Positions 1,783-63,610 of a stretch of 64,000 nt of DNA are shown piece after piece. Where the stretch lies: contig JAKJCA010000004.1 of NCBI GenBank assembly GCA_022706685.1, positions 1 through 64,000 of the forward strand. The letters are read 5' to 3'. Position 1 is the stretch's first letter. Every line of letters begins with the position of its first letter. Position numbers and translations under genes: made by a program. The notes below the pieces were generated by a model that was given only the letters and a program-made list of their open reading frames with translations, had not been told where the DNA came from and ran no database searches. Origin of the DNA: Bacillota bacterium. Its GTDB lineage: Bacteria > Bacillota > Clostridia > Oscillospirales > Acutalibacteraceae.

Positions 1783-2454
1783 ATGCAGGAGAACGCGCCC
1801 CCGTTGATTACGATCGTATGCGGCCATTACGGCAGCGGAAAAACCAATTTTGCACTCAACCTCGCCTTGCGGCGGCGTGCAGGCGGCGGGGAAATGACGC
1901 TTGTTGACCTTGACATCGTCAACCCCTATTTCCGCTCGTCCGATTATGCCCGCTTTCTCGAAGAGAAGGGCGTCCGCCTGATCGCCCCGGGCACCGCAGG
2001 TACCACGCTTGACGCACCGGCATTGACGCCGGGTATCGGCGCAGCCATCGGCGGCGGGGGAGACGTGATTATCGATGCCGGCGGCGACGACGCCGGCGCC
2101 GCCGCGCTCGGCCGCTTTGCCGGAGAAATCTGCGCGCGCGGCTACGAGATGCTCTATGTCGTCAACCGCTTCCGCATCCAAACCGCGGCTCCGGCCGATG
2201 CTGCTGCCCTGCTCGGGGAAATCGAAGCCGCATCAGGTCTCAAGGCCACGGCGATTGTCAACAATTCGCACCTTTCGGGGCTGACCGCCCCGGCCGATAT
2301 TCTGGACGGGCTTGCTTATGCGAAGGCGGTAGCAGGGCTGACAGGCCTGCCGCTGTTCGCCAGCACCGTCCCCGCGGCGCTTGCCGGCGCGCCGGAACTG
2401 GCCGGCTATGATCTTTTCCCGGTAGAGATTCTCGTAAAACTGCCGTGGAACTAA
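1783..2454 (+). CDS. MinD/ParA-like P-loop ATPase heading the 2-oxoacid oxidoreductase operon
   Basis: This 223-residue protein has a Walker A motif GHYGSGKT near residue 14 and a switch-like VDLDIVNPYFRSSDY segment, typical of the SIMIBI (MinD/CobQ/ParA-like) nucleotide-binding class. No further domain is visible. It stands 12 bases before the ferredoxin subunit gene and very likely belongs to the same operon, so a role in assembling or controlling the iron-sulfur oxidoreductase is a reasonable guess but is not shown. The ATG at 1783 has no upstream ribosome-binding site. A possible -10 (TACAAT, 1764-1769) would start the transcript only about seven bases before it. A downstream TTG at 1804 follows an AGGAG at 1787 but with a long spacing. 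Confidence 0.75.
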   Translation: MQENAPPLITIVCGHYGSGKTNFALNLALRRRAGGGEMTLVDLDIVNPYFRSSDYARFLEEKGVRLIAPGTAGTTLDAPALTPGIGAAIGGGGDVIIDAGGDDAGAAALGRFAGEICARGYEMLYVVNRFRIQTAAPADAAALLGEIEAASGLKATAIVNNSHLSGLTAPADILDGLAYAKAVAGLTGLPLFASTVPAALAGAPELAGYDLFPVEILVKLPWN

Positions 2455-2466
2455 ACGGAGGGAATT

Positions 2467-2673
2467 ATGCCTAAAGTCACCATCAACGAAAACTTATGCA
2501 AGGGCTGCGGCCTTTGCGCGGAGGCCTGTCCCAGGGGGGTGCTCGCACTCGCCGCGGATGAACTCAACGCAAAGGGTTACCCTCCCATGAAAGTGTCCAA
2601 TCCCGGCGACTGTACCGCTTGCAGGTCCTGCGCGATCATGTGCCCAGACTGTGCGATAACGGTGGAAAGGTGA
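2467..2673 (+). CDS. 2-oxoacid:ferredoxin oxidoreductase, delta (2x[4Fe-4S] ferredoxin) subunit
   Basis: The 68-residue protein carries two CxxCxxCxxxCP clusters, CKGCGLCAEACP near residue 14 and CTACRSCAIMCPDC near residue 48, binding two [4Fe-4S] clusters. As the delta subunit of a four-subunit ferredoxin oxidoreductase it would pass electrons from the TPP site to external ferredoxin. A good ribosome-binding site (GGAGG) lies just upstream, and its stop codon overlaps the first possible ATG of the alpha-subunit gene. Gene order delta-alpha-beta-gamma matches the Kor/Vor family in Clostridia. Confidence 0.92.
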   Translation: MPKVTINENLCKGCGLCAEACPRGVLALAADELNAKGYPPMKVSNPGDCTACRSCAIMCPDCAITVER

Positions 2674-2678
2674 TGAAT

Positions 2679-3742
2679 ATGGCTCAACGTGTTTTGATGA
2701 AAGGCAACGAAGCGCTCGCCCAGGCGGCAATCGACGCAGGCTGCCGTTGTTTTTTCGGCTATCCCATCACGCCGCAGACGGAACTGGCTGCCTACATGGC
2801 CAAACAAATGCCCAAGGTCGGCGGCGTCTATCTTCAGGCGGAGAGTGAAATCGCCGCCATCAATATGGTGCAAGGCGCGGCGGCGGCGGGCGTCAGGGCG
2901 ATGACCTCGTCCTCGTCGCCGGGCATCAGCCTGAAAACCGAGGGAATTTCCTATATGTGCGGCTCCGACCTGCCGGCGCTGATTGTCAACGTTCAACGCG
3001 GGGGACCCGGCCTCGGCGGCATTCAGCCCTCGCAGGCGGATTACTGGCAGGCGACAAAGGCTCCGGGACACGGCGATTTGCATATCCTCGTCTTTACGCC
3101 CTCATCGGTGCAGGAAATGGTCGACCTCGTCGGCAAGGCGTTCGACCTGGCGGACAAATACCGCATGCCGGCGATGATTCTTGCCGACGGTCTGCTCGGC
3201 CAGATGATGGAGCCCGTCGAAATCGGCGGCAAAGAAGTTCCGGTTCCGGCAGCGAAGCCCTGGGCGGCCTGCGGCCATCGCAACCAAAGGGAACACAATA
3301 TCGTCAACTCGCTCTATCTTACCGCGAGCGAATTGGAAGATTTGGTAAAAAAACGCTTTGAACGCTACCGTGAGATCGAGGCGAAAGAACCGCTTTGCGA
3401 AGCGTACCTCGTCGATGACGCCGATATCGTCGTGGCCGCCTACGGGGCCGCGGCGCGTATCGCCAAAGCCGCCGTGCGTACCGCCCGGGAACGCGGTATC
3501 AGGGCGGGGTTGCTCAGGCCCGTTACCGTATGGCCTTTCCCCAAAAAGGATTTTCAGGCTGCGGCCCGGCACGCTTCGCGTTTTTTATGCGTCGAGATGA
3601 ATATGGGCCAGATGGTCGACGACGTCAGGCTCGCCGTCGAATGTTCCAAACCCGTCGGCTTTTTCGGCACCACCGGCGGCGTGATTCCCACGCCGGCGCA
3701 GGTGCTCGAGCAAATCGAAAATCTTTCAGGAGGTGCGCGCTG

Positions 3743-28590: not shown

Positions 28591-29493
28591 TTGAGCGGAA
28601 AGTATCTGATTGTCAACGCCGACGATTTCGGCATGTGCCGCGCCGCAAACCTTGCGACCTTCGACCTGTTCGAAAAGGGAGGAATCAGCTCGTCCACGGT
28701 GATGATTCCCTGCGGCTGGGCGCCCGAAGCCTGCAAATGGGCCGGCGAGCACCCGCAGTATGCCGTCGGCGTGCACCTGACCTTCACCAGCGAGTGGGGC
28801 GTTTACCGCTGGGGCCCTGTGGCGGCATCCGGCACGGACTCCCTGCGCGATGAATTCGGCTTTTTCTACCATGAAAACGACGAGTTTGAGGACCATTGCG
28901 ATATCGACGAAGTGGAGACGGAAATCAGGGCGCAGGTCTCCCGCGCCGTCGCGCTCGGGCTGAAGCCATCCCACCTCGACAATCACATGGGTTCGCTCTA
29001 CGGCCTCAACGGCAACTATGAAGTGATGCCCAAAACCTTTGAGGTCTGCGGCCAACTCGGCTACGCGTTCCGCATGTTCCGGAAAATACGCGAACAGGAT
29101 GTTCCCTCCGATTTTCCCGACGGTGTCCCGGTTGACGTCGCGCGCATGATTGTCAACGGCTACGCATCCTGCGCGGATGAGAACAAGGTCCCGCTTATCG
29201 ACTACCTGCTTTTCCCCGAGTGGACGGAAGAAACCAGGCGCGACTACAACATATACCGCGAATATATCCTCGAGCGGCTTTCCGGCATTGAGGAAGGCAT
29301 TTCCGAAACTTTCATCCACCCGTCGCTCGAGTGCGACGAACTCAAAGGTATCACCGCGCTGTGGCGCTGCAGGGTTTGGGAGCACAAACTGTTCTCCGAC
29401 CCGGCCACCAGGCAGCACCTCGAAAGCAAGGGAATCACCTACATCAACTACCGCGATGTCGTCCGTATGAGAAAAGCAGAGAACAAAGATTGA
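28591..29493 (+). CDS. ChbG/YdjC-type carbohydrate deacetylase
   Basis: The 300-residue protein starts (TTG) with KYLIVNADDFGMCRAANLA and contains GVHLTF and PSHLDNHMGSLYG. The Asp/His residues form the metal site of YdjC-family deacetylases, with FIHPS near the end. Known members deacetylate N-acetylated oligosaccharides such as chitobiose. No signal peptide, so it likely acts on imported sugar. A GGAAAGGAAGCG precedes the start, and alpha-mannosidase follows by 8 bases. Confidence 0.88.
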   Translation: MSGKYLIVNADDFGMCRAANLATFDLFEKGGISSSTVMIPCGWAPEACKWAGEHPQYAVGVHLTFTSEWGVYRWGPVAASGTDSLRDEFGFFYHENDEFEDHCDIDEVETEIRAQVSRAVALGLKPSHLDNHMGSLYGLNGNYEVMPKTFEVCGQLGYAFRMFRKIREQDVPSDFPDGVPVDVARMIVNGYASCADENKVPLIDYLLFPEWTEETRRDYNIYREYILERLSGIEEGISETFIHPSLECDELKGITALWRCRVWEHKLFSDPATRQHLESKGITYINYRDVVRMRKAENKD

Positions 29494-29501
29494 GGTGCCT
29501 T

Positions 29502-31979
29502 GTGGACAAAAAAGTTTTTTTAATCGGCAACGCGCATCTGGACCCTGTCTGGCTGTGGAGAAAATCCGAGGGCCTTGCCGAAATCAAGGCGACCTTCCGC
29601 TCCGCCCTCGACAGGATGAACGAATACCCCTCCTATGTGTTTACCGCCGCGGCGACAAGTTATTACCAGTGGATAGAAGCAAGCGAGCCGGAGATGTTCG
29701 AGGAGATCAAACGGCGGGTCAACGAAGGCCGCTGGGTGATCGGCGGCGGTATGTGGGTGCAGCCCGACTGCAACCTGCCGTCCGGGGAAGCCTTCGCCAG
29801 GCATATGCTCTACTCCCAGGGTTTTTTCCTTGAAAAGTTCGGTAAAATCGCCAGTTTCGGCTACAATGTCGATTCCTTCGGCCACAACGGTATGATGCCG
29901 CAGCTGCTCAAGCACGGCGGCATGGACAGTTATGTCTATATGCGCCCCGACGACTGGGAAAATCCGTCCCTTCCCTTCGGCCTTTCGTTTTGGGAGTCGC
30001 CCGACGGCAGCCGCGTGCTGGCTTACCGGATTCCGCTCGGCTATGGCGACAACGGCTTTTCAGAGGAGGAATATCCCGACCTTGCCGGACTCGACCAATA
30101 CACCGCGAAGGTGCGCTATTTCCTCAAGGCCTCCGGGAAGGCGGGCATCCCGCTGATGAGTTTCTACGGCGTGGGCAACCATGGCGGCGGCCCGACGGTC
30201 CGCCACCTCGATGCGCTCGAAAAAGAAATTGCCGCCCGCGGCGGCGAGGTGCTGTATTCCGGTCCGGAGGAATATTTTGACTATGTCCGCAAAACGGTCG
30301 ACCCCGATCAGATACCCGTGGTGAAAACCGATCTGCAGCATCACGCCAGCGGCTGCTACGCGGCCAATTCCCAACTGAAAAAACGCAACCGCGTCGCCGA
30401 AAACCTGCTGGTTTCCGCCGAAAAGTTCGACTGGCTCGGCGCCAAACTCACCGGCGCCGCGCAACATACCGCGCAGCTGAAAGCCGCCTGGGAAAAGGTG
30501 CTTTTCAACCAGTTCCACGACATTTTGGGCAGCTGCTCCATCCGCAGCGCCTATGACGAGGCATTCGACGCTTTCGGTTCGGCGAGCGATACCGCGCGCG
30601 AAATCGCCAGTTTCTCCCTCGAACGCATCTCCTGGCGTGTCAATACCGTCAGCCTTTTTTCCGTTCCCGGCAAGGAAGACGGCGCGCGCATGTTTGCCGG
30701 CGACGGCGAAGGCAAACCCGTCGTCGTCTTCAATCCGCACAGTTTTCCCGTGCGCCAAAGCGTCAACACGTCCCATGTGGCCTCTGGTGTCTGTGACAGC
30801 GAGGGCAGGAGCGTCCCCATCCAAAAAGTGCGCGCGGAACGTACCAACGGGACCGACCTTTTTGAAACCATGTTCACCGCCGAGGTGCCCGCGCTGGGCT
30901 GGGCGACCTATTACGTCTATTACCGTACGCCCATGGAGGCCCCCGCCACGGCCGGCGTTTCCGCCGCCGCCTGCAAGCTGGAGAACTCTCTGGTCAAAAT
31001 CAAGTTCGACCGTTTCACCGGCGCCGTGACCGGGTATCTCGACAAAACGGCCGGCAAAGATTTCGCGGCCGGTCCCATGGCGGTCCCCCTGGTCATACGT
31101 GACTATGAGAACGACACCTGGTCGCACCGCGTTTTCCGTTTCCGCGAGCAGCTGGGCGTCTTCACCGACGCCGAGATGAAAGTTATCGAAAACGGGCCCA
31201 TCAGGGCGACCCTCCGCGTCACGACGCGTTACAACAACAGCGTCCTTGTGCAGGATTTCAGCCTCTATGAAGGCCGCAGGGAACTTTATGTCCGCTGTTT
31301 CCTGACCTTTGCCGAACAGCTGAAAATCCTCAAACTTTCCTTCCCGGCCGCTGTCGGCGGCGATACGGTGACCTATTCGATGCCCTACGGCTTCATCGAA
31401 AAACCGGCCGACGGCTGCGAGGAGAACGCCCACAAATGGCTCGATGTTTCCGACGAGAACGGCCTGGGGCTTTCGCTTATCAACGACGGCCGTTACAGTT
31501 TCGATGTCCTCGGCCGCGATATCCGCATGACAGCTGCGCGCGGCTGCGGCTATGCCGACCATTTCGGCTGCCGCGACGACCTTATGGAGTTCCAGGACCA
31601 GGGCGAGCACTTTTTCCATTACATCCTCGCCCCGCACGAAACCAGGGATTTTGCCCGGACGGTCCAGATGGCGGCCGTGCTGAATTCCCCGCTTGTCCTG
31701 ATTCCGGAAACGCATCATGCCGGGCCGCTGGCGACAACCGGCTGCGCGATGGAAATTTCGGCGGAAAATGTTGCCGCCTCGGTCATCAAAGCGCCGGAAA
31801 AGGGCGGTGGCACGGTTCTGCGTCTCTATGAGACCGCCGGGCGCCCGGTGAAAGCCCGTGTCAAACTCCGGCCGGCGGGTCTCGACTGCGAACTCGATTT
31901 CGGCCCGCAGGAGATTAAGACGCTCTTGATTGACCCTCGCTCCGGTTCATACAAAGAAGTCAATTTTATCGAAATGTGA
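29502..31979 (+). CDS. Alpha-mannosidase, glycoside hydrolase family 38
   Basis: The 825-residue protein opens with FLIGNAHLDPVWLWRKSE (zinc-binding His/Asp) and has YNVDSFGHNGMMPQLLKHGG, which carries the predicted nucleophile Asp. The middle-domain KAAWEKVLFNQFHDILGSCS is followed by the C-terminal beta-sandwich domains. This is the GH38 layout; it releases terminal alpha-mannose. No signal peptide, so it is probably cytoplasmic. GTG 29502 is preferred: TGAGGTG lies just ahead and the longer frame would overlap the deacetylase gene. Confidence 0.94.
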   Translation: MDKKVFLIGNAHLDPVWLWRKSEGLAEIKATFRSALDRMNEYPSYVFTAAATSYYQWIEASEPEMFEEIKRRVNEGRWVIGGGMWVQPDCNLPSGEAFARHMLYSQGFFLEKFGKIASFGYNVDSFGHNGMMPQLLKHGGMDSYVYMRPDDWENPSLPFGLSFWESPDGSRVLAYRIPLGYGDNGFSEEEYPDLAGLDQYTAKVRYFLKASGKAGIPLMSFYGVGNHGGGPTVRHLDALEKEIAARGGEVLYSGPEEYFDYVRKTVDPDQIPVVKTDLQHHASGCYAANSQLKKRNRVAENLLVSAEKFDWLGAKLTGAAQHTAQLKAAWEKVLFNQFHDILGSCSIRSAYDEAFDAFGSASDTAREIASFSLERISWRVNTVSLFSVPGKEDGARMFAGDGEGKPVVVFNPHSFPVRQSVNTSHVASGVCDSEGRSVPIQKVRAERTNGTDLFETMFTAEVPALGWATYYVYYRTPMEAPATAGVSAAACKLENSLVKIKFDRFTGAVTGYLDKTAGKDFAAGPMAVPLVIRDYENDTWSHRVFRFREQLGVFTDAEMKVIENGPIRATLRVTTRYNNSVLVQDFSLYEGRRELYVRCFLTFAEQLKILKLSFPAAVGGDTVTYSMPYGFIEKPADGCEENAHKWLDVSDENGLGLSLINDGRYSFDVLGRDIRMTAARGCGYADHFGCRDDLMEFQDQGEHFFHYILAPHETRDFARTVQMAAVLNSPLVLIPETHHAGPLATTGCAMEISAENVAASVIKAPEKGGGTVLRLYETAGRPVKARVKLRPAGLDCELDFGPQEIKTLLIDPRSGSYKEVNFIEM

Positions 31980-33218: not shown

Positions 33219-34746
33219 TTACCGCCGCGTCCTGTATTTTGCGATATGCCGCGCTGCTCTCAGAGGATTCTTATGAATAACAAAACCGGTAAAACGGGCT
33301 TTTTTGCCGCAGTCGTAATCATATAATTGCCCGTGTCCCAAAACCTTATACTTTCTGCCGTCGTAATGCCGGTCGCCGAATTCCAGGAACCAGCTGTCGA
33401 GTTCATTTTGTAAGCTGTCGATGGTTTCCCGATGCCTCTTGTCTTTGATAAGATTGTTTTTTTCTCCGGGGTCGTTTTCCAAATCATAGAACTCGTCGTA
33501 ATAGAGGCCTCCCCGGGTAATCAGTTTGTACCGCTTGTTTCTGATCATTCTGGAATAACCGTATTCGCTGAAAGCGACGATACTGCCGGCATCCGCCCCG
33601 GTCTCTTTGCCTCGCAGGATATCCGCGAAACTCCTGCCGGGGAGTTTTTGTATGACTTCGCCCTGCAGGTCCAGGTAATCCAATGAGTGTCGGCATCAAA
33701 TCATAGTGGCTATAAAGATTACAGATGGTCCGGCCTCCACGGATTGCTTTTGGGAAGCAGACGAGGAACGGCACCTTGACGGAGGTGTCGTACATATTCT
33801 GCGGGAAGGTGGCGTTTCCCTTGCCGAAAAGCCCGTGGTGCCCCATGTTCATCCCGTTGTCGGATGTAAAGATGATGATGGTGTTATCGTATAATCCGTT
33901 GCTTTTAAGGGCCTCGATGATTTTTCCGATCCCCGCATCCATGGCGGTGATGGCCGAATAATAACCGCGCAGCAGCGCTTTCCTTTTATCGCCCCGCCCG
34001 AACGGAGCGGAGAAAGTGAAGCAGGGGTGATATTCCTTTTCTTCCGGAGTATTGCAGAATGCGTTGCCTTCGTAAAGCGCCCATACATCGGCCGGGTGTT
34101 CATGTTTATCCCAGGGCGAGTGCGGCGCCGTATAATGCACGCTCAGATAAAACGGTCTGCTGCTGCCGGCGCACTGGTTCAGGTTTACCACCGCGTTTTC
34201 GGTGATTAAATCGGTAATATATTTTTCGGGATAACATATTTTACCGCCTTCTGCTACGCGCGGATTCATGTAGCTGCCGCCGCCCGTTGCTATGGTATAC
34301 CATCTTTCAAAACCCTGCTGCGGGGTGCAGCTGTCGCCCAAATGCCATTTGCCGCTCAGGCAGCATTGGTAACCCTCTTGAGCCAGGAGGGAAGTATATG
34401 TGGTGATGTTGTGAAGATATTGCTGCGGTACGGTTTCGCGGCAGTTCGGTATGAGATTATAAAGCCTGCTTTCATAAAATTTCTTTTTATTCTTTTGGCT
34501 GCCTTCAATATTGCCCCTAGCAAGCCAGTCGTGTATCCCGTGGCGGGAAGGTATGGTGCCCGTGAGAATCGAAGCGCGCGCGGGCGAACAAACCGGGCTG
34601 ACGCAGAAGAAGTTGTCGAAACGTATGCCTTCCCTTGCCAGCCCGTCTAAATGGGGCGTTATCACATCGGGGTTGCCGGCGTTCCGCATAGCCCATGCGC
34701 CCATATCATCAGCCAAAATAAATAGAATGTTGGGCTTGTTATTCAT
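33219..34746 (-). pseudogene. Cys-type sulfatase with a frameshift near 33684
   Basis: From ATG 34746 the product reads NKPNILFILADDMGAWAMRN, the sulfatase metal site, then PVCSPARASILTG, the C-x-P-x-R site whose Cys must be converted to formylglycine. GKWHLGD and FTSDNGMNMGHHG follow. After SHYDLMPTL the frame runs into unrelated sequence, while the expected continuation (LDYLDLQGEVIQKLPGRSF to the C-terminus at 33219) is in another frame. A single extra base near 33684-33686 explains this. It is either a recent inactivation or an assembly error. It would remove sulfate from sugars. GGAGG precedes the start; pyridoxamine kinase lies upstream. Confidence 0.85.
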
Positions 34747-34825
34747 TTCGGCCTCCGTCCGGCAAATGATGAACCGGCGCTTGATGTCAGAGGGATTGCC
34801 CCCCGTCTGCGTCAACGGTTACCGG

Positions 34826-43138: not shown

Positions 43139-43167
43139 TTGACAATTATTAAAAGTGGTTATATTAT
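43139..43167 (+). promoter_or_regulatory. Strong sigma-A type promoter of the giant dockerin protein gene
   Basis: A perfect TTGACA (43139-43144), 17-base spacer and TATTAT (43162-43167). The transcript would start near 43175, leaving about 105 bases of leader before the ATG. Confidence 0.85.
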
Positions 43168-43280: not shown

Positions 43281-46200
43281 ATGAAAAACACAAGAAGGGG
43301 CCTGAGTATCCTGCTGTCGCTGGCGCTGGTCATTTCATTTGCCGGCATCGGCCTCGATACCGGCCGGACAAAAGCGGACCTCCCTGCGGCTGAAACGCTT
43401 AGCCATTCGGCTGTTTCGACCGCCGTGACTTTTTATGTACCGGAACTCATTTACCTGACTCCGTCCATAGCGGCCAACAGCGCAACCACTTTCAAGTATT
43501 ACGTGGACTGCGACTCAGACGGCAAACTCAACAACTCGAATGCGAAGACCACCGGCGCGGTCTATTTCAACGCCCCGGGCGCGTCGGCCTGTTCCATTTC
43601 CGTTTCGGGCGCGACGGTGACCATGGGTTCCACGAGCGGAACGAACACCATCAATACCACCGTCACCGCGGGCACCTTGTCCGCGGGCCTTTCGCAGGGC
43701 TATGCCAGCACGCTGACCTGGACGGCGTCCTATACCATCAACGGCGAGGTGAAAACCGCCAAAGCCTACACGGTCTGTTATGCGCCGCAGGTATCGGTTC
43801 TCGGCGCAGTCGCCAGAACTTATAACAACGACGGAACTGATGATTATAAAGCCGATTTTCAAGGATGGGCATACATCAGCGGTGTGCACGGAGCCGGTAC
43901 CGGCGGCAACTACCAGGCCAATACATCGGGTTCTTATATTCTCAACCCTATGCAAGGCACGGTAACCTCTTTGACAAGCGATGTCGGTTCCATCAGTTGG
44001 TTCTTCGCCCAGTCAGGCGGCTGGTCGAAATATATCAACAATGAATCCGGCGGTGACAGTATCATTGTCCAGGCGGTCAGCCCCACAGGTACGCTGACGG
44101 TTGACACAAGCCGCTACAGCAATATCAACCAGATACCGAACTTGAAGTGCGGCTTTGCCATGACACACATGGGCAGTATGAACGACAACTATATCCGCTG
44201 GGCAGGCGGTTTCTCTAACACAGTGTCAGGCTGGCATTACAGCGATGTCAACGAAAATAATAACAACCGCTTACAGAATGCCATCGTTCGTGATACCGAA
44301 CTGCCCGACGGCGGTGTATTTCTCTTTGGTTCAACCGACTCCGGTCAGTCGCTGACACGCGGCGTCTATTATGGCGGCAGCACGGGCGGCGAAATGTGGA
44401 GCCAGACCCTTTCCTCTTATAATGTCATTCGTTTGAAGTGGGCGGGCTGGGCGCGCAACAGCACCGGCGGCGAATACAACGGGCTGTCCTGCGTCGTTGC
44501 GATCGATTTGACCAAAGTCGACAAATCCACCCTGCGCAGCCATGTGCGCCAATACGTTAACATGGGCCTTCAGGCGGCGGATTATTCCAACGATGCCGCC
44601 GATTTCGCGGCTTATGAGGCGGAACTAAAAGCCGCGGCTGAGCGCCTCGGCAACCCGACGAACAGCAACAATGCCGACACCATCGCCGACAAATACGCCG
44701 CGCTGACTAAAAACTCCTACACGGCGACGGTCAATGATGTCTTCAACAACGGCAAAACGACCGTTGTGGAGTCGCAGACTTTTTATGCGGGCGAAACGGT
44801 CAGCTTCGGCCCGGATACCTATACAGGTTACACACTCGCGTCCGCGTCGGGCTATACGACGAGCACGTCCGCTCAAACGGTATACAACTGCCGTACGGCC
44901 ATTACGCAGAATTATAACTACAACGCACACACCTATACCGTCGCTTACAACGGCAACGGCGCCACGGGTGGCTCGACGGCGAGTTCCTCGCACACCTATG
45001 ACGTTGCCAAAAACCTGACTGCAAACGGCTTCACACGCACGGGCCATACCTTCGCCGGCTGGGCGACGAGCGCGGGCGGCGGTGTGGCTTACACCAATAA
45101 CCAGAGTGTCAGCAACCTGACTTCCACCAATGGTGCGACGGTCACGCTTTACGCCGTGTGGACCCCGAACAACTATAACGTCACCTTCTACCCCAACGGC
45201 GGCAGCGGGACGATGAGCCCGCAGTCCATCACTTTTGGCACTTCAGCCCTTCTCAACGCCAACACTTATTCCTATCCCGGCTATAATTTCGCCGGTTGGG
45301 CGACCAGCGCCGGTGGCGCGGTGGCTTATGCCGACGGCGCGAGTTTCACCATGAACACGGAGGGTGCCTCGCTGTACGCTGTCTGGACGGCGAATAACTA
45401 CACCGTTACCTTCAACGCCAACGGCGGTTCCGCGCCGTCGCCGGCATCGAAAATCGTTACCTTCGGCAGCCCCTACGGCACCCTGGCGACGACCACTCGG
45501 ACGGGCTACACCTTCACCGGCTGGTGGACCGCATCCTCCGGCGGCAGCAAGATAGAGACCAGCACGCCCGTGGCAATCGTGGGCGACCATACCTTGTATG
45601 CGCAATGGTCTGCCAATACTTATCAGGTCGTCTTTGACGCCAACGGCGGTTCGGGCTCAATGGTCAACCAGAGCATTGTCTTCGGCCAAAGCGCAGCGCT
45701 GACAGCCAACTCGTTCACGCGCACGGGCTACACCTTCGCCGGCTGGGCGACCAGCGCGGGCGGCGGTGTCGTTTACCTTGACGGTGCGAACTATACCATG
45801 TCGACCACAGGCGCAACGCTTTACGCTGTCTGGACGGCGAATACCTATACGGTGACTTTCAACGCCAACGGCGGCTCTGCGCCGTCGCCGGCATCAAAAA
45901 TCGTTACCTTCGGCAGTGCCTACGGCACCCTGGCGACGACCACGCGCGCCGGCTATACCTTTGCGGGCTGGTACACGCAGTTGTCCGGCGGCAGTTTGGT
46001 AACGGATGCAACCGTCGTTTCGACGGCCTCCGACCATACGCTTTATGCACACTGGACTGGCATCAACTACACGGTGGTGTTCAACGGCAACGGGGCGACG
46101 GGCGGCTCGATGGCGCCGCAGGCGTTTGTCTACGGCACGGCGCAGAACCTTAACGCCAACACGTATGTCCGCACGGGGTACACGTTCAGCCATTGGAACA

Positions 46201-49200
46201 CGCAGCCGGGCGGGGGCGGCACCAACTACAGCAACAACCAGAACGTCAACAACCTGACGACGACGCCGAACGGCACCTACACGCTGTACGCGCAGTGGAC
46301 GCCGATACTCTATACCATCACATTCCACTACCAGGGCGGGCAGAGCTCCAACGGCGTAACGGTGACGGACGTCTACTATGACGCGACCTACGGTTCGGGC
46401 GGGTGGCCTGAAGGGGTGACCCGCGCCGGTTACACGCTCAACGCCAACGCGTGGAACACGGCTGCGGACGGCTCCGGGTACAATGTGGAAAGCACGACGA
46501 TCTTTGCGGAGTGGGGCGACACGCAGATCCACACGGACCTGTACGCGCAGTGGACGGCGAACACCTACTATCTGACGTACGACCCGGAGGGCGGCACGGT
46601 GACGCCGACGGGCAAGACGGTGACCTTCGGGATGACGTACGGCGCGCTGCCGACGCCGACGCGGACGGGCTACACCTTCCTGGGCTGGTATAACGGCGAC
46701 AACGGGACGGGCGAGCAGATCACGACGATATCGGTCGTTTCGACGCCGAGCGACCATACGATTTACGCAAAATGGCAGATTAACTCCTACACCATCAACT
46801 TCGTCGAGAACGGCGGGTCGACGGTGACGAACATCACGCAGAACTACAACACGCAGGTGGCGAAGCCGGCCAACCCGACGCGGACGGGGTATCTGTTCGC
46901 GGAATGGTATTCCGACATCGGGCTGACCAATCTGGTGACGTGGCCGTACACGATGGGGGCGTCGAACGTCGACTTTTACGCGAAGTGGACGCCGATCACG
47001 TACACGGTGACGTACAACGGCAACAACGCCACGGGCGGGAGCACGGCGGACTCGACGCACACGTACGATATCGCGAAGAACCTGACGGCCAACGGGTACA
47101 CGCGGACGGGCTACAGTTTCCTGGGCTGGTCGCTCAACGCGGGGGCGCCGACGCCGTCGTACGCGGACCAGGAGAGCGTGCTCAACCTGTCGTCGACGAA
47201 CAACGCGGTTGTGACGTTCTACGCGATCTGGCAGGCGAACACGTACCAGGTGACCTTCAACGCCAACGGCGGGTCGGGCACGATGACGCCGCAGGATATC
47301 GTATACGGGCAGACGGCGGCGCTGTCGACGCTGGCGTACACCAAGACGGGCTACACGTTCGTGGGCTGGGCGACCAGCGCGGGCGGGCCGGCGGTGTACC
47401 CGAACGAGGCGAACTACACGATGAACACCACGGGTGCGACGCTGTACGCCAAATGGCAGGCGAACACTTACACAGTGGTATACAACATCAACGACAACTC
47501 CCCGGCGGGCTGGCCCGCGACGGGGACGATGGCGAACACGTCGCACACGTATGACACGGCGATGAACCTGCGGACGAACGCCTACGCGAGGAACGCCTTC
47601 ACGTTTGTGGGCTGGGCGGTGACCGAGGAGCGCGCGGACGCGGTGCTGGTGGACTACACCGACGGGCAGAGCGTGATGAACCTCAGCGCGCTGCAGGGCG
47701 CGACGGTGACGCTGTACGCGGTGTGGCAGGAGAACCCGGCGAGCTACACGGCGCTCAACGCGGCGGTGGCATTGGCCAACGCGACGAACCTGCCGGTCAA
47801 CGCAACGCACGACCCGCAATACATGGCGCCGGACGGCGAGATGTACCTGGCGGGCGAATTCACCAACAACGGATTCTATCCGCGGTCGAACTTCACGACG
47901 GCGAGCATCGGGGCGCTGGAGAGCGCCGTGGGCGCGGTGGTGTACGGCCTGGGCGCGACGCGGCAGGCGGACATCAACGGCTGGACGGCGGCCGTCACGG
48001 CGGCGTACAACAACCTGGCTTTGGCTGTGGCTGACTTTACGGAGCTTAACGGGCTGATTGCGCAGGTGGACGCGCTCAACAGGAACCTCTACACGGAGGA
48101 TTCGCTGACGAACCTGGATTACTACTACTATCCGGCGGTGGACATGACGACGAGCCCCGACCCGATCAGGGCGCCGCTGCAGGTATGGGCGGACGATTTG
48201 GCCGACCTGCTGAGCGGCGCGATCGCGGCGCTGGAGTACAAGGACGCGGACTACACGGGGGTCAACAACGCGTACGCCAGCAGGATGCTGAAGAACGGGT
48301 ATCCGACGTACTACACGACGGAGTCGGTCAACGCGCTGGAGAACTACTATCTGACGCAGATCAACTGGACGCTGAAGATTAACCAGCAGTCGGTGGTCGA
48401 CGGCTACGCGCAGTCGATTCTCAACCTGATCAACGCCCTGGTGCTGAAGCCCGCGAATTACAGCGCGGTGACGGCGGCGATCGCGGCGATTCCCGACGGC
48501 GACGGCGGGGCGGCGAACGTGGACTACACGTACCTGGCCACGAAATACACGACGGGGTCGATCGCGGCGCTGCAGAACGCGGTCAACGCGGTCATCTACG
48601 GCAAGTACATCGACGAGCAGTCCATCGTGGACAGCTACGCGGCGAACATCACGGCGAAGACCAACGCGCTGGTGCCTCTGGGCGCGGACTACACGTACCT
48701 GGGCCTTGCGCTGGCGCAGGAGCCGGCGTTCCCGGATTCGTACTACACGCCGGCGTCCATCAACGATTTCCGCAACGCGAAGGCGGCGGGCCTGGTGCTG
48801 TACAACAACCAGAACCTGTCGATTCTGGAGCAGTACATCATCGACGACGCGACGGCGGCCATCAACAACGCCTACTTCAACCTGGCGCTCAAGGCGGTGA
48901 CGTATACCATCCGCTGCCAGAACGGTTCCGGGGTGACGCTGCGGGCGGATGAAGTGCTCAACGCGACGGCGGGCGACACGCCGATGGTGTACGCGCCGGC
49001 GGTGACGGGCTACACGCCGGTGACGGCGAGCCAGTCGAGGCAGTTGACGGGCAACAACGCGGAGAACATCTTCCTGTTCGTCTACACCATCAACCAGTAC
49101 ACGGTGACGTTCGAGTCCAACGGGGGCTCGGCGGTATCGAACATCACGCAAAATTACGACACGCAGGTGGCGCAGCCGGCCGACCCGACAAGGGTGGGCT

Positions 49201-52200
49201 ACACCTTCGCGGGGTGGTACGGCGAGAGCCAGCTGGTGAACCCGGTGAGCTGGCCGTACACGCTGGGGGCGTCGAACGTGACGTTCTACGCGAAGTGGAC
49301 GGCGCACACCTACACGGTCCAGTATGACAAGAACAGCGGCCTGGCGACGGGGACGACGGAAGCGTCGTCGCACACCTACGACACGGCGAAAGCGCTGACG
49401 GCCAACGGCTTCAGCAGAACGGGCTACCATTTCGGCGGCTGGGCGACCTCGCCGGCGGGGGCCGCGGTCTACACGGACGGACAGAGCGTCACGAACCTGA
49501 CCACGGTCAACAACGACGTGCTGACGCTGTATGTCGTGTGGGCGCCCAACCAGTACACGGTGACCTTCGACGCGCAGGGCGGCACGGTCGACCCGGCGAG
49601 CAAGCAGGTCAGTTACGACGCGACGTACGGCACGCTGCCCGACCCGGTGCGCGAGGGCTACTCGTTCAACGGGTGGTTTACGGAAAGCGCGGGCGGCACG
49701 CAGGTGACGGGCGGCACGGGCGTTTCCATCCTGGCGCCGCAGACCTTGTACGCGCAGTGGACAATGATTCCTGCGGACACCGAAGAAGTGGAAGTGCTCA
49801 TTGATTTCGAGGTTTACATCGAGATGACGGGCAGCGACCCGGTGTACCAGGGCGACGCGACGCAGGCGGGCACGGTCTACTACTACGGCACGCCGGCGCA
49901 GCGCGAGGCTTACAACGACGCGTATCTGAACGCGCTGGCGCTGATGGCGGAGTCGCCGATGCCCGACACGGCATACAACCGCGGGAGGATTGCGGATGCG
50001 GCCGGCGCCTTGTCCGACGCGCTGGCGGTGCTGTACGCCAACCCGAACCCGGCAGATTACACCTACTGCGACGAAGAGATGGCTGCGGCGGGGGCGCTGA
50101 ACCTCAACCGCTACACGACGGCGTCGCTGGACGAACTGCAGGCGGTGGCCGACGCGGTTACGCCGGGCAAGATGGCGACCGAGCAGATAGACGTCAACGA
50201 TTACACGACGGCGCTGTACTCGCAGCGCGAGGACCTGGTGCCCTATCAGGATGCGGCGGCGCCGAGGCTGAAGGTGCTGGAGACCGACGCGGCGATGGCC
50301 GGCATCACGATACCGGGTTATGACCCGGAGGATTACGGGAACGTCAGCTACGTCTATCCGGGCAAGGCCTACTATACGTACTACTGTTACACCAATAGCG
50401 AGAACCCGTCGATTGTGGTGAACATTGCGGATTTGGCGGACGGGAACGGCAGGCTGTCGTACCCGACGAATATGGACATCACGTCGGTATCGGGTCTGGT
50501 CAACAGCGGATGGATGAGCTACACCTACGACAGCGGGCAGCGCGCGGGGACGCCGCTGCAGGGCACGGTGACGGTGGCTTCGAACCCGTACGCGGACTAC
50601 ACCATCGGGATGGATTACGACCCGATGGGGGCGGACTACTACCGCCAGGCGGAGTACCTGGTGCTGAAACCCGAGTTCGTGCAGGCGGGCGGCAAGCAGT
50701 TCGCGAAATACACCATCAGTGGCAAGGACGACGCGGCGGCGGACGGGAACCTGGCGAACACGACGTCGCTGTCGGGCGGCAACCAGACGTACCGGGACGG
50801 CGTGGCGATGACCACGGCGAACCAGGCGGTGACGCCGCTGAACACGATTACGATTTACGTCGAGTACCGCAACAGCATGTCGCTCGACGGCGGCGTGTGG
50901 TATGACGACGGGCGCAGCGCTGCGTCGCTGCGCGGCTACAACAACCTGCTGCCGGACGACCAGTGGGTGAAGAAGGATTACATTTACAGGGTTTCGGGCG
51001 GCGCGACGAACGACGAGATCATCGGGCTGGGCGACACGGTGTACACGGCCAACGACCCGAACTACGGTCAGGCGGACCTGGCGTGCTTCTACTACTGGCT
51101 GAGCGACACGGCGGACGCGGACGTGATTGCGGAGTTCAACGCCAACGGGCAGTATTCCGCGACGCGGATGCTGATGGCGGATATCGCGGCGAACCCGGGC
51201 GGCTATACCTTGCGCAACTGGCCGAAGACGGCGACGTCCATCAGCGGCTTTGACCCGAACACGAACTGCCGGCTGGTGTATGTGCACATGGTAGACCGCT
51301 GGGGCAACGTGTTCAACCGCATCATCAAGACCAACAATGTCGACGCGGTGGCGCCGGTGGCGGACCAGCAGGGGATCAACGGCTACGTGAAGATCACCGA
51401 GGACGGCGGGAGCGCGGTGCAGACCATCCGGCTGTACCAGTACGCGTACGAAGGCACGCCGTCGTACGTCGTCCCGTGCTGGAGCAGCAAACTGATTACG
51501 GACCTGGGGGTCATCAGTTCCGAGGATAACACGTTCGACATTCACGTCAATCCGGCGGAGATTACGGATCCTTCGGGCAGGCTGACGCTGTACGTCAAAG
51601 ACAAAGCGGGCAACGAAATGACGAAGACGGTCAAGCCCGACGCGAACGGCGACATCCTGTTCGAGATTGTGGACCCGGTGAACATGCCGGGCGGCGGCGC
51701 GGTGAACAGCGTGGGCGGCATCTACACCTTCCTGTTTGACGACACGCTGACGGTCAAGCTCAACGTGCCGGGCGCGCCGAAACTGACCGCGCTTTCCACG
51801 ACGGTCATCGACGAGGAGAACGGGTTCATTTACGGCCTGACCGAGGGCATGACGCAGATGGCCTTCGAGGCGGATTATGTCCGCGTCACGGGCAACGGGC
51901 GCCTGGCGTTCACGCCGGCCGGCGGCTTCGGGACGGGGACGAAGGTCGAGCTCATCGACAACGAGACCAATGAAGTGCTCAAGGCCTACACGGTGGTCAT
52001 CTTCGGCGACGTCAACGGCGACGCAAATATCGACTCTTCCGACGCGGCGCTGATTACGGACTTCGAGAACTACGCCGTGTCATGGGCCCTGCCGGCCGAC
52101 GCCGCGTACCTGAAAGCGGCCGACCTCAGCGGGGACGGCAACGTCGATTCCTCCGATGCGGCGCTGGTCACGGACGCTGAGAACTTCACCGTGGCCATCG

Positions 52201-52232
52201 ACCAGGTGACCGGGCTGGCGCGCGTCTTCTAA
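43281..52232 (+). CDS. Giant secreted dockerin protein with fifteen InlB B-type (Listeria-Bacteroides) repeats
   Basis: The frame encodes about 2983 residues from ATG 43281, which follows GAGGAGG. Residues 1-32 form a signal peptide ([19 protein letters not shown]). Residues 33-548 are a beta-rich N-terminal region. Twelve Listeria-Bacteroides repeats (units ending like [14 protein letters not shown] ... TLYAVWTAN) fill about 549-1485. Residues 1486-1870 are helical repeats, FIVAR-like. A MucBP-like unit ([20 protein letters not shown]) follows, then three more Listeria-Bacteroides repeats to about 2164. A helical and beta-rich region leads to a C-terminal type I dockerin (about 2905-2974) with two calcium loops, [12 protein letters not shown] and [12 protein letters not shown]. 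It likely acts as a long surface adhesin or scaffold-bound spacer docked to a cohesin. No LPXTG or S-layer anchor is seen. Codon use changes inside the gene. Confidence 0.9.
44925..47735 (+). repeat. Twelve tandem Listeria-Bacteroides repeat units
   Basis: Twelve units of about 70-85 codons each share a [10 protein letters not shown]-like start, a TGYTFAGW core and a TLYAxWTxN end. Units 3 and 5, and units 2, 4 and 11, resemble each other most, showing two alternating sub-types. Confidence 0.9.
49090..49770 (+). repeat. Three further Listeria-Bacteroides repeat units
   Basis: Three units follow the helical region. The first ([20 protein letters not shown]) is close to unit 9 of the first block, suggesting duplication and separation. 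Confidence 0.88.
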
Positions 52233-57435: not shown

Positions 57436-59763
57436 ATGAAAGTAACGAAAAAATTCGCCGCGATAGCCCTCGCTTTCGTGCTCCTAACCGGCGTTTGCGT
57501 TGTGCCTGCTTCCGCCGGCGCCGCGCCGGCGCCGTTTTACCTGGGTGATAAAAACGGCGACGGCATCGTCGGCATTTCCGACTTTGTGCTTCTTCTGCGC
57601 GCCCTCTTCGGTATCGCGCCCCTGCAGAGCGACAGCGCGCTTCGCGCGGATGTCGACGCCGACGGTACTACGGGGTTCAAAGACGCTTTTCTGATTCTGC
57701 TCACCGCGCTGAAAATGATCCCGCCCGCAGAATATAACGCCGGAGGCGGCGAAACGGAGGAATTCGTCATGGGATCCCACGACCTTGTCGTATCGCCGTT
57801 GGGCAGCGACCTGTGGAGCGGTAAAATACCCGAACCCAATGCAGAGGGAACAGACGGGCCGCTCGCCAGCATCGAAGAAGCGAAAGAACGGCTGAAGAAA
57901 CTCAAGAACATCGACTGCGGCGAAGGCAGCGACTGTATCCTCAAAGATGTGACCGTCTGGCTGAGGGAAGGCGCCTATTTCCCCGCCGCGACGCTGAAAT
58001 TCGGTCCCGATGACCTGGGCAACGTCACGTACAAAGCTTATCCGGGAGAGAAGCCGGCAATATCCGGCGCGGTTCCCGTCAGCGGCTGGAGGGCCGAAAC
58101 CGTCAACGGCGTCCCGGCATGGACAACGCAGTTGGAGCCCGGCACCGCGTTTAACACATTATACCGCGGCGGCACCAGCCTGCCGAGGCCCCGCTTTCCG
58201 AAAGAAGGCGAACTGAACGTCGCTTCGGTCAACCACGCGGACGAGCTCGCACCCGACAGCACCTATTTCAAAGCGAACCTTTCTTTCAACGCCAACCCGG
58301 CCGATATGTTCGCGTTTCACAACCTCAAGGATGTCGACGTGCGCATTCTGCATTTCTGGAAAGATGAACTCATCCCGTTGGAGAGTTTTGATCCCGCCAC
58401 CGGCTATGTGCGCCTTTCGAAACCCTCGAGCATGACCATCAGCGAGGGCGACCGTTATTTCTTCGAAAATGTTTTTGAAGCCCTCGACGAACCCGGCGAA
58501 TGGTACCTCGACCAGGTCACGGGCAAACTCGCCTATGTGCCCGAACCCTCCGAAGACATCGCGTCAACGGTCCTCTATGCCGGCAAGCTCGAGCGAATCA
58601 TGAGCATCGACTCGGTCGACGGCATCGTCTTTGAAGGCATCACGTTCAGGGACAGCGAGTGGAACATCGTACCGCAGCCGCTCGAGAACTCGCAGGCGGC
58701 GTACGGCGTCGCGCCGTGCATCCTGGTTCAAAACGCCGAAAATATCGCGTTTACCTCCTGCAGGCTCGAGAATATCGGCGCCAGCGGCATCAAAATCGGC
58801 GCCGACTGCCAAAACTGCTCGGTCACCGGCTCTTTGTTTTATAAAATCGGCGCCAACGCCGTCTTTATCGAAGGGCAAAATTTACAGCCGGGCGACGCGC
58901 GGGTGACGCGGAATATTAAAGTGTCCGATAACCATATTTACCGATACGGCAGAAACTTCAACAACGCCATCGGCGTGCTGCTCATCCACGCACGTGAGTG
59001 CGAAATTTCCCACAATGAAATTCACGACGGCTTCTACACTGGAATATCCGCCGGCTGGGTGTGGGGCTACGGCTACAATGTGACCGATTATCTGAAAATT
59101 TCCGATAATCTGATTTACGACATCGGCCAGGGCTGGCTGGCGGATATGGGCGGCATCTATACGCTGGGCATGCAGCCGCATACCGTCGTCAGCGGCAATG
59201 TGGTGCACGACGTCGGTTGCTACAGCGGCAGCAGCGGCTACGGCGGCTGGGGCATTTACCTCGACGAGGGTTCCACCGGCATCACGGTGGAGAACAACCT
59301 TGCCTACGACTGCTCTTCGCAGGGCTTCCACCAGCACTACGGCCGCGAAAATCTTGTGCGCAACAATATTTTCGCCTTCAACGCCGACGGCCAGGTCCGT
59401 GTTTCCAGAGTGGAGGAGCACACATCCCTTTTTCTGAAAAACAACATCATTGTTTCGAAAAACCAGCCGATTTATACGGGCATCACCAAAGGGCAGTTTG
59501 TGGATGACAGCAACCTTTACTGGGACTATTGCCGAGGCGCAATCGTTCTCAGCGGCTCGACGACGAATATTTTTGATAGAATCTATCCCATCACCGCGCG
59601 CTGCCGCGGCTACTACAATCACGGGGTATTCGAAGACCCGCGTTTTGTGGATGCCTGCGCGAGGGATTTCCGGCTCAAGCGCGGTTCACCCGCCTTCGAA
59701 GCCGGTTTCGTCGAGTGGGATATTTCGGCGGCAGGCACCTTGACGGCGTTCGATGTCGGTTAA
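57436..59763 (+). CDS. Secreted right-handed beta-helix protein with N-terminal type I dockerin
   Basis: The 775-residue protein has a signal peptide (KFAAIALAFVLLTGVCVVPASAG) and at once a dockerin with two calcium loops, DKNGDGIVGISD and DVDADGTTGFKD (about residues 37-95). Residues from about 115 carry a parallel beta-helix carbohydrate-active-like domain (SPLGSDLWSGK, EGITFRDSEWN, HNEIHDGFYTGISAGWVWGYG, GNVVHDVGCYSG). It resembles right-handed beta-helix polysaccharide lyases/hydrolases, e.g. GH141-like; substrate unknown. Dockerin at the N-terminus is less common than at the C-terminus. It probably docks to a cohesin scaffold encoded elsewhere. Confidence 0.85.
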   Translation: MKVTKKFAAIALAFVLLTGVCVVPASAGAAPAPFYLGDKNGDGIVGISDFVLLLRALFGIAPLQSDSALRADVDADGTTGFKDAFLILLTALKMIPPAEYNAGGGETEEFVMGSHDLVVSPLGSDLWSGKIPEPNAEGTDGPLASIEEAKERLKKLKNIDCGEGSDCILKDVTVWLREGAYFPAATLKFGPDDLGNVTYKAYPGEKPAISGAVPVSGWRAETVNGVPAWTTQLEPGTAFNTLYRGGTSLPRPRFPKEGELNVASVNHADELAPDSTYFKANLSFNANPADMFAFHNLKDVDVRILHFWKDELIPLESFDPATGYVRLSKPSSMTISEGDRYFFENVFEALDEPGEWYLDQVTGKLAYVPEPSEDIASTVLYAGKLERIMSIDSVDGIVFEGITFRDSEWNIVPQPLENSQAAYGVAPCILVQNAENIAFTSCRLENIGASGIKIGADCQNCSVTGSLFYKIGANAVFIEGQNLQPGDARVTRNIKVSDNHIYRYGRNFNNAIGVLLIHARECEISHNEIHDGFYTGISAGWVWGYGYNVTDYLKISDNLIYDIGQGWLADMGGIYTLGMQPHTVVSGNVVHDVGCYSGSSGYGGWGIYLDEGSTGITVENNLAYDCSSQGFHQHYGRENLVRNNIFAFNADGQVRVSRVEEHTSLFLKNNIIVSKNQPIYTGITKGQFVDDSNLYWDYCRGAIVLSGSTTNIFDRIYPITARCRGYYNHGVFEDPRFVDACARDFRLKRGSPAFEAGFVEWDISAAGTLTAFDVG

Positions 59764-61016: not shown

Positions 61017-62501
61017 TTGACGCTGACTATTTTGAAGGACGGGGTTCCTCAAACCCTTGCGGCTGCAAAAGGGGAGAACCTGCTGAATATTTTAAGAACG
61101 CAGGGTTACGACATCAACTCTGTCTGTTCGGGCAACGGCAGCTGCGGCAAGTGTAAAGTCCACTTTCTGACGACGCCTCCGCCCCTGTCGCGCGTCGAAC
61201 AGCGCATGCTCTCGCCGCAGGAGATTTCGGAGGGGATGCGCCTTGCCTGCCGTGTCGCGCTCGAAGGCGACTGCACGGTTGAAATACCATCCGATTCCGG
61301 TATGGCGATCGCCGGCGCGGGCGTAGAAAAGCGAGAAAACGGTGACGGTCGCTGCTTCGCCGCCGTCGATATCGGAACGACCACCCTGGTCGCGGCGCTC
61401 GTCGATGCCTCGGGCTCTGTTCTCGCCACAAAAGGCGAAAAAAACCGTCAGGCCGCGTTTGGCGCCGACGTCATTTCGAGGGTCAAGCACATCCATACCG
61501 GCGGGCTTGGCGAACTGCAGCGTACCGTCGCCGCGCAAATCGATTCGATGCTTCTCGGCCTGCTCAAGGAGTTCCCTGCCGCCCGGCTCGAAAGCACGAC
61601 CGTCAGCGGCAACACCGCCATGCTCAACATTTTTTTTAACGAAGATTGCTCCGGCCTCGGTTTTGCGCCGTATACGCCCGCTTTCCTGTCATCGCGCAGG
61701 GCGTCCGCCGCGTCGCTCGGCCTGAGTGTCGGCGGGGACGTCGTTTCGGTCGCCGGCATGGCGAGTTTCGCAGGCGGCGACATCACGGCGGGCATCGTCG
61801 CCTTGCCCGCGCAGGACGACGGCCTCGCCATGCTCATCGACCTTGGTACCAACGCCGAAATCGCCCTCTACGGCCGCGGTAAAATCTGGTGCACCTCAGC
61901 CGCCGCGGGCCCCGCTTTTGAGGGGGCGAGCATCCGGCAGGGGATGGGCGCGGTCAACGGCGCGGTTTGCTCGTTTGAATTGGTTAACGGCAACCCCCGT
62001 GTGCGGACCATCGGCAACAAACCCGCCATGGGCATCTGCGGCTCCGGCCTCATCGATATCGCCGCGCAGCTGCTGGAAAACGGCATTCTCGATGAAACGG
62101 GCAGGCTGCTCGGCGGCAGTTTTGAAATTTGTGACGGCGTCAGCCTGTACGCTGAGGATATCAGGGAATTGCAACTGGCCAAAGCGGCCATCGCCGCGGC
62201 CATCGAACTGCTCGTCGCCCGCTCCGGCGTCGCTTTCGATGACATCGCCGATGTCTTTATCAGCGGCGGCTTCGGCAGTTATATCAATACCGCCAACGCG
62301 GTCCGTCTCGGTCTGCTGCCCGAACAGCTCAAAAAGAAAACGGCCGCCGTGGGCAACAGCAGCCTTGCGGGCTGTATCCTTTGCGCCGTATCACCGGAGA
62401 AGATGGCATTAGCCGATGAGATAGCAAAAAAAGCAGTCTACTTAGAACTGACCAACTCCGCCGCGTTCTCCGACGCTTATATCGAGCACATGTTGTTTTA
62501 G
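61017..62501 (+). CDS. DUF4445/RACo-like corrinoid-protein reductive activase
   Basis: The 494-residue protein has an N-terminal [2Fe-2S] ferredoxin-type domain (CSGNGSCGKCKVHF, then LACRVALEGDC) and a C-terminal ASKHA-fold part with AVDIGTTTLVAAL, IDLGTNAEIALYG and GICGSGLIDIAAQLL. This is the layout of RACo/RamA-type activases that reduce inactive cob(II)alamin to cob(I)alamin at the cost of ATP. It begins with TTG 61017, two bases after the tmcAL stop, with GGAGAG ahead. The URO-D-type methyltransferase gene follows. Confidence 0.9.
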   Translation: MTLTILKDGVPQTLAAAKGENLLNILRTQGYDINSVCSGNGSCGKCKVHFLTTPPPLSRVEQRMLSPQEISEGMRLACRVALEGDCTVEIPSDSGMAIAGAGVEKRENGDGRCFAAVDIGTTTLVAALVDASGSVLATKGEKNRQAAFGADVISRVKHIHTGGLGELQRTVAAQIDSMLLGLLKEFPAARLESTTVSGNTAMLNIFFNEDCSGLGFAPYTPAFLSSRRASAASLGLSVGGDVVSVAGMASFAGGDITAGIVALPAQDDGLAMLIDLGTNAEIALYGRGKIWCTSAAAGPAFEGASIRQGMGAVNGAVCSFELVNGNPRVRTIGNKPAMGICGSGLIDIAAQLLENGILDETGRLLGGSFEICDGVSLYAEDIRELQLAKAAIAAAIELLVARSGVAFDDIADVFISGGFGSYINTANAVRLGLLPEQLKKKTAAVGNSSLAGCILCAVSPEKMALADEIAKKAVYLELTNSAAFSDAYIEHMLF

Positions 62502-62527
62502 ATTTTGAAACGGAGGCTTTAATAATA

Positions 62528-63610
62528 ATGATGACAGGTATTGAGCGTATATCGCGGAACCTTCAGAGGAAAAAGGCGGACAGGATCGGGCTGTATGAGC
62601 ATTTTTGGGGTGATACGCATAAAACATGGTTAAGCCAGGGTGAAATCAATGAAAATGAAAGCCTGGAGGACATTTTCGGTTTTGATTTTGCGGGTTCCTG
62701 GCCGTTCAATTTTACGGCCGACCTTGATTTTGTGCCGGAAAGGCTGACCGAAGATGAGGATACCTATACCACACTTGACGGCAACGGCGCGACCCTGCGC
62801 CGGCATAAAAAACACGACACCACGCCGGAACACATCGATTTTTCCGTCAAAGACAGCAGGGCATATTATGAAAAAATACAGCCCTTGATTACCCCGTCCG
62901 AGAGACGAGTTGATTTCTGGGGATATGCTGCCGCGAAGAAAAAAGCCGCCGAAAAACAGCGTTTTTTTGTTTGGAGCGGCGTCAACGTTTTCGAACTGAT
63001 GCATCCTGTCTGCGGCCACGAGAATATGCTCGTCGGCATGGCGCTGGAGCCTCAATGGATTGCCGAAATGGCGATGGATTATGCCAGGGCGACCGTTGCC
63101 ATGCAGGAAATGCTGTTCAGCGAAGCGGGCAAGCCGGATGGTATCTGGTATTATGAAGATATGGGCTTTAAAGACAGGCCGTTCATGTCGCCGGCCATGT
63201 ATAAAGAACTGATTCAACCGGCGCACAAATATACGATTGATTTTGCCAAGAGCCTGAACCTGCCGGTCATTATGCATTCCTGCGGCTTTGTGGAACCGCT
63301 GCTGCCGGGCATGATGGAAGCGGGCATTGACTGCCTGCAGGTCATCGAAGTGAAGGCGGGGATGGACCTTCTGCGTATATATAAAAATTACGGCGACAGG
63401 CTGTCTTTGATGGGCGGCATCGATGTCCGCGCTCTGTACTCCAATGACAGAAAGATCATTGACGCCGAGCTTGAGGCAAAGATTCCGATTGTGAAAGAAG
63501 GATTCGGATATACCCTGCACAGCGATCATTCAATACCCAATACCGTCGAGTTTGAGACATACAAATATTTTGTTGAAAAAGGGCTTGAACTGGGCAGCTA
63601 TACCGGATGA
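62528..63610 (+). CDS. Uroporphyrinogen decarboxylase (URO-D) family methyltransferase-like protein
   Basis: The 360-residue protein has the URO-D family features KADRIGLYEHFWGD, the HSCG motif near residue 252 (His/Cys as zinc ligands in MtaA/MtbA-like methyltransferases), MGGIDVRAL and HSDHSIPNTV near the end. The typical C-terminal Cys ligand of MtaA is replaced by this His-rich motif, so it may be a more distant branch. With the activase it suggests methyl transfer to or from a corrinoid protein; the methyl donor is unknown. It is the last gene of the long plus-strand series. Confidence 0.82.
   Translation: MMTGIERISRNLQRKKADRIGLYEHFWGDTHKTWLSQGEINENESLEDIFGFDFAGSWPFNFTADLDFVPERLTEDEDTYTTLDGNGATLRRHKKHDTTPEHIDFSVKDSRAYYEKIQPLITPSERRVDFWGYAAAKKKAAEKQRFFVWSGVNVFELMHPVCGHENMLVGMALEPQWIAEMAMDYARATVAMQEMLFSEAGKPDGIWYYEDMGFKDRPFMSPAMYKELIQPAHKYTIDFAKSLNLPVIMHSCGFVEPLLPGMMEAGIDCLQVIEVKAGMDLLRIYKNYGDRLSLMGGIDVRALYSNDRKIIDAELEAKIPIVKEGFGYTLHSDHSIPNTVEFETYKYFVEKGLELGSYTG

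Follow-up and report, generated by a model that had tools for sequence, protein, structure and literature searches.

In Ruminococcus flavefaciens the adhesin CttA, which reaches cellulose with two carbohydrate-binding modules (CBMs), is held by ScaE, a wall-anchored, sortase-attached cohesin (PMC4081043), and in a human gut bacterium a force-resistant XMod-Doc:Coh adhesion complex has been described whose dockerin has two binding modes (PMC7456326). In both systems an X module and a dockerin stand at the end of the adhesin and a cohesin takes the place of an anchor of its own. In R. flavefaciens FD-1, whose full cellulosome includes many glycoside hydrolases, dockerins are also found on leucine-rich repeat (LRR), transglutaminase-like and serpin proteins, for which the authors suggested a role in cell-surface structuring (PMC2930009). 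Dockerins in seemingly cohesin-free genomes have been a standing puzzle.

Here we describe a 2983-residue protein encoded in a 64,000-nucleotide stretch of DNA (hereafter the window) from a member of the Acutalibacteraceae; as we read its sequence, it is probably a giant adhesin of elongated shape which, once secreted, is tethered non-covalently through its X-dockerin end to a divergent cohesin carried by a second secreted or surface protein. An X-like module lies directly before the dockerin, as in the CttA-like layout with which we compare it, and there is a putative head. Unlike CttA, the adhesin has no CBM and would instead present a beta-sandwich head on a stalk of InlB and FIVAR-like repeats; its X-like module has no detected sequence relation to solved chains, and the cohesin proposed as its partner is one of a divergent subfamily. 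It shares its main repeat family (Flg_new, TIGR02543) with the Listeria internalins and other InlB B-repeat surface proteins, but has neither a leucine-rich head nor an LPXTG anchor, ending in an X-dockerin. The genome as a whole resembles FD-1 in having dockerins on proteins without glycoside hydrolases, and the group 4 dockerins of FD-1 are, like that of the adhesin, internally symmetric; it differs in that no glycoside hydrolase scored over the cut-off in any of its scanned dockerin proteins. We found no paper in the open-access literature on a dockerin combined with InlB or Listeria-Bacteroides repeats, although the combination may still have been reported. What is new, as far as the open literature goes, is the divergent cohesin subfamily, the lack of glycoside hydrolases among the scanned dockerin proteins and the giant InlB/FIVAR-like cargo.

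The Adhesin Gene and Its Domain Layout

The ATG at the start of the adhesin gene (Table 1) is preceded by a ribosome-binding site, GAGGAGG, and a near-consensus promoter-like site lies upstream. A longer frame beginning with GTG at position 43155 was rejected because this codon falls inside the promoter-like site. Where domains could be recognised, the neighbouring genes are metabolic; the first one downstream, on the opposite strand, encodes acetate kinase. A 1883-aa antisense ORF looks mechanical.

Table 1. Features of the adhesin gene and of a second dockerin-like gene, in window coordinates.
Feature	Position	Strand	Basis or remark
Promoter-like site TTGACA-17-TATTAT, upstream of adhesin gene	43139..43167	+	Near-consensus, 11/12 matches; consensus match only
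Adhesin gene, 2983 aa	43281..52232	+	ORF from ATG 43281 to stop 52232; secreted, dockerin at C-terminus
Signal peptide, ~aa 1-31	43281..43373	+	Read from sequence; the protein's only strongly hydrophobic stretch
N-terminal region, aa 32-477; candidate ligand-binding head	43374..44711	+	Ig-like beta-sandwiches and a helical segment; homologs in 7 relatives
12 InlB B-type (List_Bact/Flg_new) repeats, aa 556-1483	44946..47729	+	Pfam, TIGR02543, own-unit profile
About five FIVAR-like helical units, aa 1487-1871	47739..48893	+	Local profile
MucBP-like unit, aa about 1873-1937	48897..49091	+	Resemblance only, no Pfam match
3 further InlB B-type repeats, aa 1944-2161	49110..49763	+	Own-unit profile
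One more FIVAR-like unit	50052..50243	+	Local profile, E 6e-8
C-terminal region, aa 2325-2830	50253..51770	+	No Pfam family
X-like module, aa 2834-2908	51780..52004	+	Leave-one-out profile E 7.5e-31; present in almost every dockerin protein of the genome
Type I dockerin, class 1, aa 2909-2982	52005..52226	+	Two intact calcium loops; Pfam Dockerin_1; leave-one-out E 3e-33
Second dockerin-like protein	57436..59763	+	N-terminal dockerin-like segment and right-handed beta-helix

An earlier note, made from the letters of the window, had described a dockerin-bearing repeat protein of this length, and Pfam matches over the cut-off to Flg_new (the InlB/List_Bact repeat) and to Dockerin_1 confirm this. 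Flg_new matched with an E-value of 1e-157 in 14 stretches and TIGR02543 with 9e-69, likewise over its cut-off, while a profile built from the protein's own units gave the fifteen InlB repeats that had been counted (12 + 3), with no further unit scoring positive. The FIVAR-like helices of the note were also recovered, about six units matching a profile made from sibling and relative proteins (7e-8 to 1e-13 each); as Pfam FIVAR (PF07554) gave no match up to an E-value of 1, we call these units FIVAR-like only. Pfam MucBP (PF06458) was equally silent up to an E-value of 1 and the MucBP-like unit remains a resemblance. Two parts had been overlooked in the note, namely the X-like module before the dockerin, for which sequence searches of the PDB gave nothing convincing, and the conserved N-terminal beta-sandwich region.

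The AF2 model of this N-terminal region reached a pTM of 0.74, and its matches in the PDB were generic Ig-like ones only (best Z 8.5), which we took as uninformative. Some homologs of the head in relatives end with Ig-like domains or an amphipathic helix and not with a dockerin, so the dockerin is not essential to the head family.

That a type I dockerin forms the C-terminus in place of a usual anchor was borne out: in the adhesin we found no LPXTG motif, no C-terminal hydrophobic segment, no membrane-spanning segment beyond the signal peptide and no wall-binding Pfam family, and a search for SLH domains found none. Sortases and LPXTG proteins are present in the genome. At one such locus (L036:1087-4571, G000 C92) a BspA-LRR dockerin protein is directly preceded by a pilus-like cluster comprising two sortases and LPXTG-type proteins.

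Dockerin Classes and the Proteins that Carry Them

The adhesin dockerin matched Dockerin_1 (PF00404) with an E-value of 3e-8 (34.1 bits against a cut-off of 22.9), both of its loops following the pattern D-x-[NS]-x-D-x-N-x-D-x-x-D. Its two halves are identical at 16 of 24 positions, and each has S10 S11 and D18-x-E20-N21-aromatic, position 22 being Y or F. A survey of ruminococcal dockerins lists repeat positions 10, 11, 17 and 18 for recognition (PMC4081043); these read S,S,T,D in both halves, and the adhesin dockerin is therefore symmetric at all four positions of that survey.

There were 26 Pfam dockerin matches in the genome, 25 of them over the cut-off, and 23 could be aligned jointly with their upstream part, nearly all sharing the X-like module. 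Nineteen of the dockerins, including those of the adhesin and of the adaptor protein C22b described below, form class 1, whose profile matches solved cellulosomal dockerins. In both halves of these, D18 and N21 are invariant, E20 is kept in 18 of 19 and an aromatic residue stands at position 22. Position 10 is S, T, A or N and position 11 is S, A, G, T, N, M or L, with Ser-Ser in both halves in four dockerins among the class 1 siblings. The earlier note had taken Ser-Ser in both loops to set cohesin specificity; the symmetry at these positions holds for the adhesin, but their role in specificity is doubtful because they vary within a class that keeps D18 and N21 throughout and E20 with a single exception. 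In a second class (C21, C83 and C104) the helices differ, and its members are located at contig ends.

The proteins that bear the dockerins carry InlB repeats, BspA-type LRRs, DUF6273, calcineurin-like phosphoesterase, subtilase, Big_2 and FIVAR domains. The pairing of InlB repeats with a dockerin is no singular oddity, since it recurs in at least six other proteins of the genome. In the dockerin proteins scanned, which were those of the genome apart from four contig-end fragments (C80a, C83, C104 and a 311-aa piece of C21), no glycoside hydrolase scored over the cut-off.

A Divergent Cohesin Subfamily

The note had made its reading depend on a cohesin being present in the genome (2.78 Mb, 95.8% complete), and with the Pfam Cohesin profile (PF00963) there at first seemed to be none, nothing scoring over the cut-off and the best E-value being 0.0018. 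The same Pfam profile detects clear cohesins in the three congeneric genomes. Two sub-threshold matches in the genome of the window lay on dockerin proteins: C22b, a 366-aa frame consisting of a cohesin-like domain, an X-like module and a dockerin, and C30, a subtilase that also bears a cohesin-like domain, one InlB repeat, an X-like module and a dockerin. A profile of only these two rows identified C77 (2.4e-8) and C52 (3.1e-6) in the same genome and also matched eight further genomes of the family. An 11-row profile then brought the total for this genome to six, adding C21 (7.5e-11) and C22c (3.9e-30), neither of which was among its rows, and gave the same number for every congener at E-values below 1e-7. 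The seeming lack of cohesins, overturned by this lineage-specific profile, was thus a consequence of the Pfam cut-off. A profile of the ordinary cohesins of the genus identified C22b only (0.012).

Searches of PDB sequences with the divergent profile returned nothing of note, two fibre proteins at E-values of about 0.05 being taken as chance matches. We rely on structure and profile comparison for the identity of these domains as cohesins. The AlphaFold model of C22b, built with four sequences, had a moderate mean pLDDT of 62, with several of the cohesin strands at about 75-84. Nearly all of its best matches among solved structures were cohesins (Foldseek E 2.4e-7), with a VIA Z of 12.8 over 135 residues against solved cohesins. 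As a control, the model of the adhesin N-terminal beta-sandwich region was put through the same structure search and no cohesin was listed; the match of C22b is therefore not one expected of any beta-sandwich. The cohesin fold, a jelly-roll beta-sandwich, is modelled for C22b, and the other five cohesins are tied to it by profile. The divergent and the ordinary cohesins of the family aligned in hhalign with a probability of 92% (6.5e-7, 99 columns), and in a small set a local profile of ordinary cohesins scored C22b at 4.9e-8.

A Conserved Gene Cluster and Candidate Anchors

C22b is part of a cluster of three genes in a row that is present in the genome of the window (C22) and in three congeners (G001 C109, G002 C185 and G003 C6), whose products are a large dockerin protein (1112-1442 aa), the cohesin-X-dockerin adaptor of about 365 aa and one more cohesin protein. 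With one cohesin and one C-terminal dockerin, C22b is built like the cellulosome adaptor scaffoldin ScaC; it differs in that its cohesin lies below the Pfam cut-off and its neighbors encode the large dockerin protein and the cohesin protein, not an enzyme scaffold. More distant relatives that carry such an adaptor include many herbivore gut MAGs.

In a tree of 29 cohesin domains, C52, C77 and C22c grouped with the TM-anchored congener proteins G002C304, G003C42 and G001C95 (clade support 99/98). Because this clade holds TM-anchored cohesin proteins, judging from sequence it is most likely the group that holds the adhesin. The genome of the window itself yielded no cohesin bearing a recognisable cell anchor; C52 and C21 have none at their ends, and the contigs break off within C77 and C22c. 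A search with G002C304 returned known cohesins only, none of them TM-anchored in this genome. The contig-end cohesin-InlB genes C77 and C22c and the class 2 dockerin pieces are probably two halves of cohesin-InlB-X-dockerin proteins, a reading based on comparison with the complete congener proteins G003C6y (1290 aa) and G002C185b (393 aa).

Among the six cohesins of the genome, two of them cut by contig ends, there was no multi-cohesin protein. The congener G003 has a protein (L052, C6, matches at 1846-3534) in which ordinary cohesins alternate with InlB repeats, a multi-cohesin scaffold. In several relatives (L099, L101, L129, L130, L131 and L083) surface proteins, cohesin proteins among them, end in an aromatic amphipathic helix, e.g., FIGFIIRFIHIIIKFVQDLFAK, which is possibly another means of membrane attachment.

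A Proposed Mode of Attachment and Its Alternatives

The claim in the earlier note that the protein is held by a cohesin gains indirect support from the six divergent cohesins, the cohesin fold of the one modelled and the lack of any other recognisable anchor. We propose that the adhesin would be secreted and its X-dockerin would then plug into a divergent cohesin of another secreted or surface protein, presumably one of the scaffold or anchor group C52, C77 and C22c, whose closest congener homologs include membrane-anchored proteins. Binding of the class 1 dockerin would be calcium-dependent and, given its symmetric halves, might occur in two orientations. The N-terminal beta-sandwich region would bind a surface or another cell, with the InlB and FIVAR-like arrays serving as the stalk, and the whole network would form a modular cell-surface coat and not a polysaccharide-degrading machine.

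The note had instead suggested an arm reaching the substrate for a cellulosome-like complex, with polysaccharide-degrading enzymes on the same scaffold. Cohesins and dockerins are cellulosome parts, the cohesin-dockerin adaptor and its cluster resemble the R. flavefaciens sca cluster (PMC4081043), and the dockerin-like beta-helix protein of the window has a sub-threshold match to GH141_M; however, this beta-helix protein lacks the class 1 motif, no multi-cohesin scaffold was seen in the genome, and the absence of any glycoside hydrolase over the cut-off from the scanned dockerin proteins leaves such an arm very unlikely. Mainly because of this absence, the sequences suggest a surface-coat network built on cohesins and dockerins, in which the adhesin is tethered in the manner of CttA, and not a cellulosome. 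The partner cohesins could also be cell-free, the dockerin joining the adhesin to a released complex that forms part of an extracellular matrix or biofilm, which would suit the complete cohesin proteins C52 and C21 with their anchorless ends. As the same cohesin group is membrane-anchored in congeners, and the assembly breaks up at precisely these repetitive genes, we consider this unlikely. The least probable account is that the dockerin has no cohesin partner in vivo and is a calcium-bound folded cap protecting the C-terminus: dockerins do occur in genomes where cohesins are few or absent, that of R. albus being one (PMC4081043), but here six cohesins are present and adjoin dockerin genes, and 19 siblings keep D18, E20, N21 and the aromatic residue in both halves, which exceeds what calcium binding needs.

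Beyond the tethered adhesin, we would give about even chances to the wider proposal that genus-wide divergent cohesins and one main X-dockerin class, a system without recognised glycoside hydrolases and unseen by the standard cohesin profile, build a modular adhesive surface coat. If this is true, the coat would consist of giant InlB/FIVAR-like adhesins, BspA-LRR and DUF6273 proteins, phosphoesterases and a subtilase. If the binding holds, the cohesin-dockerin plug would hang proteins without polysaccharide-degrading domains on the cell at scale, its role would be wider than cellulose digestion, and new binding pairs would be available for bioengineering.

The C30 subtilase (L030, G000 C30), which combines a divergent cohesin with a dockerin of a third kind and has related proteins in all three congeners, is possibly a processing protease of the network.

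Other Genes of the Window

Upstream of the adhesin gene are genes for a GH38 alpha-mannosidase (29331-31979) and a sulfatase (33484-34815), which suggests the use of sulfated or mannose-bearing glycans. At 61017-63610 the gene for a RACo-type corrinoid activation protein adjoins that of a URO-D family protein, and the pair suggests a corrinoid methyltransferase system.
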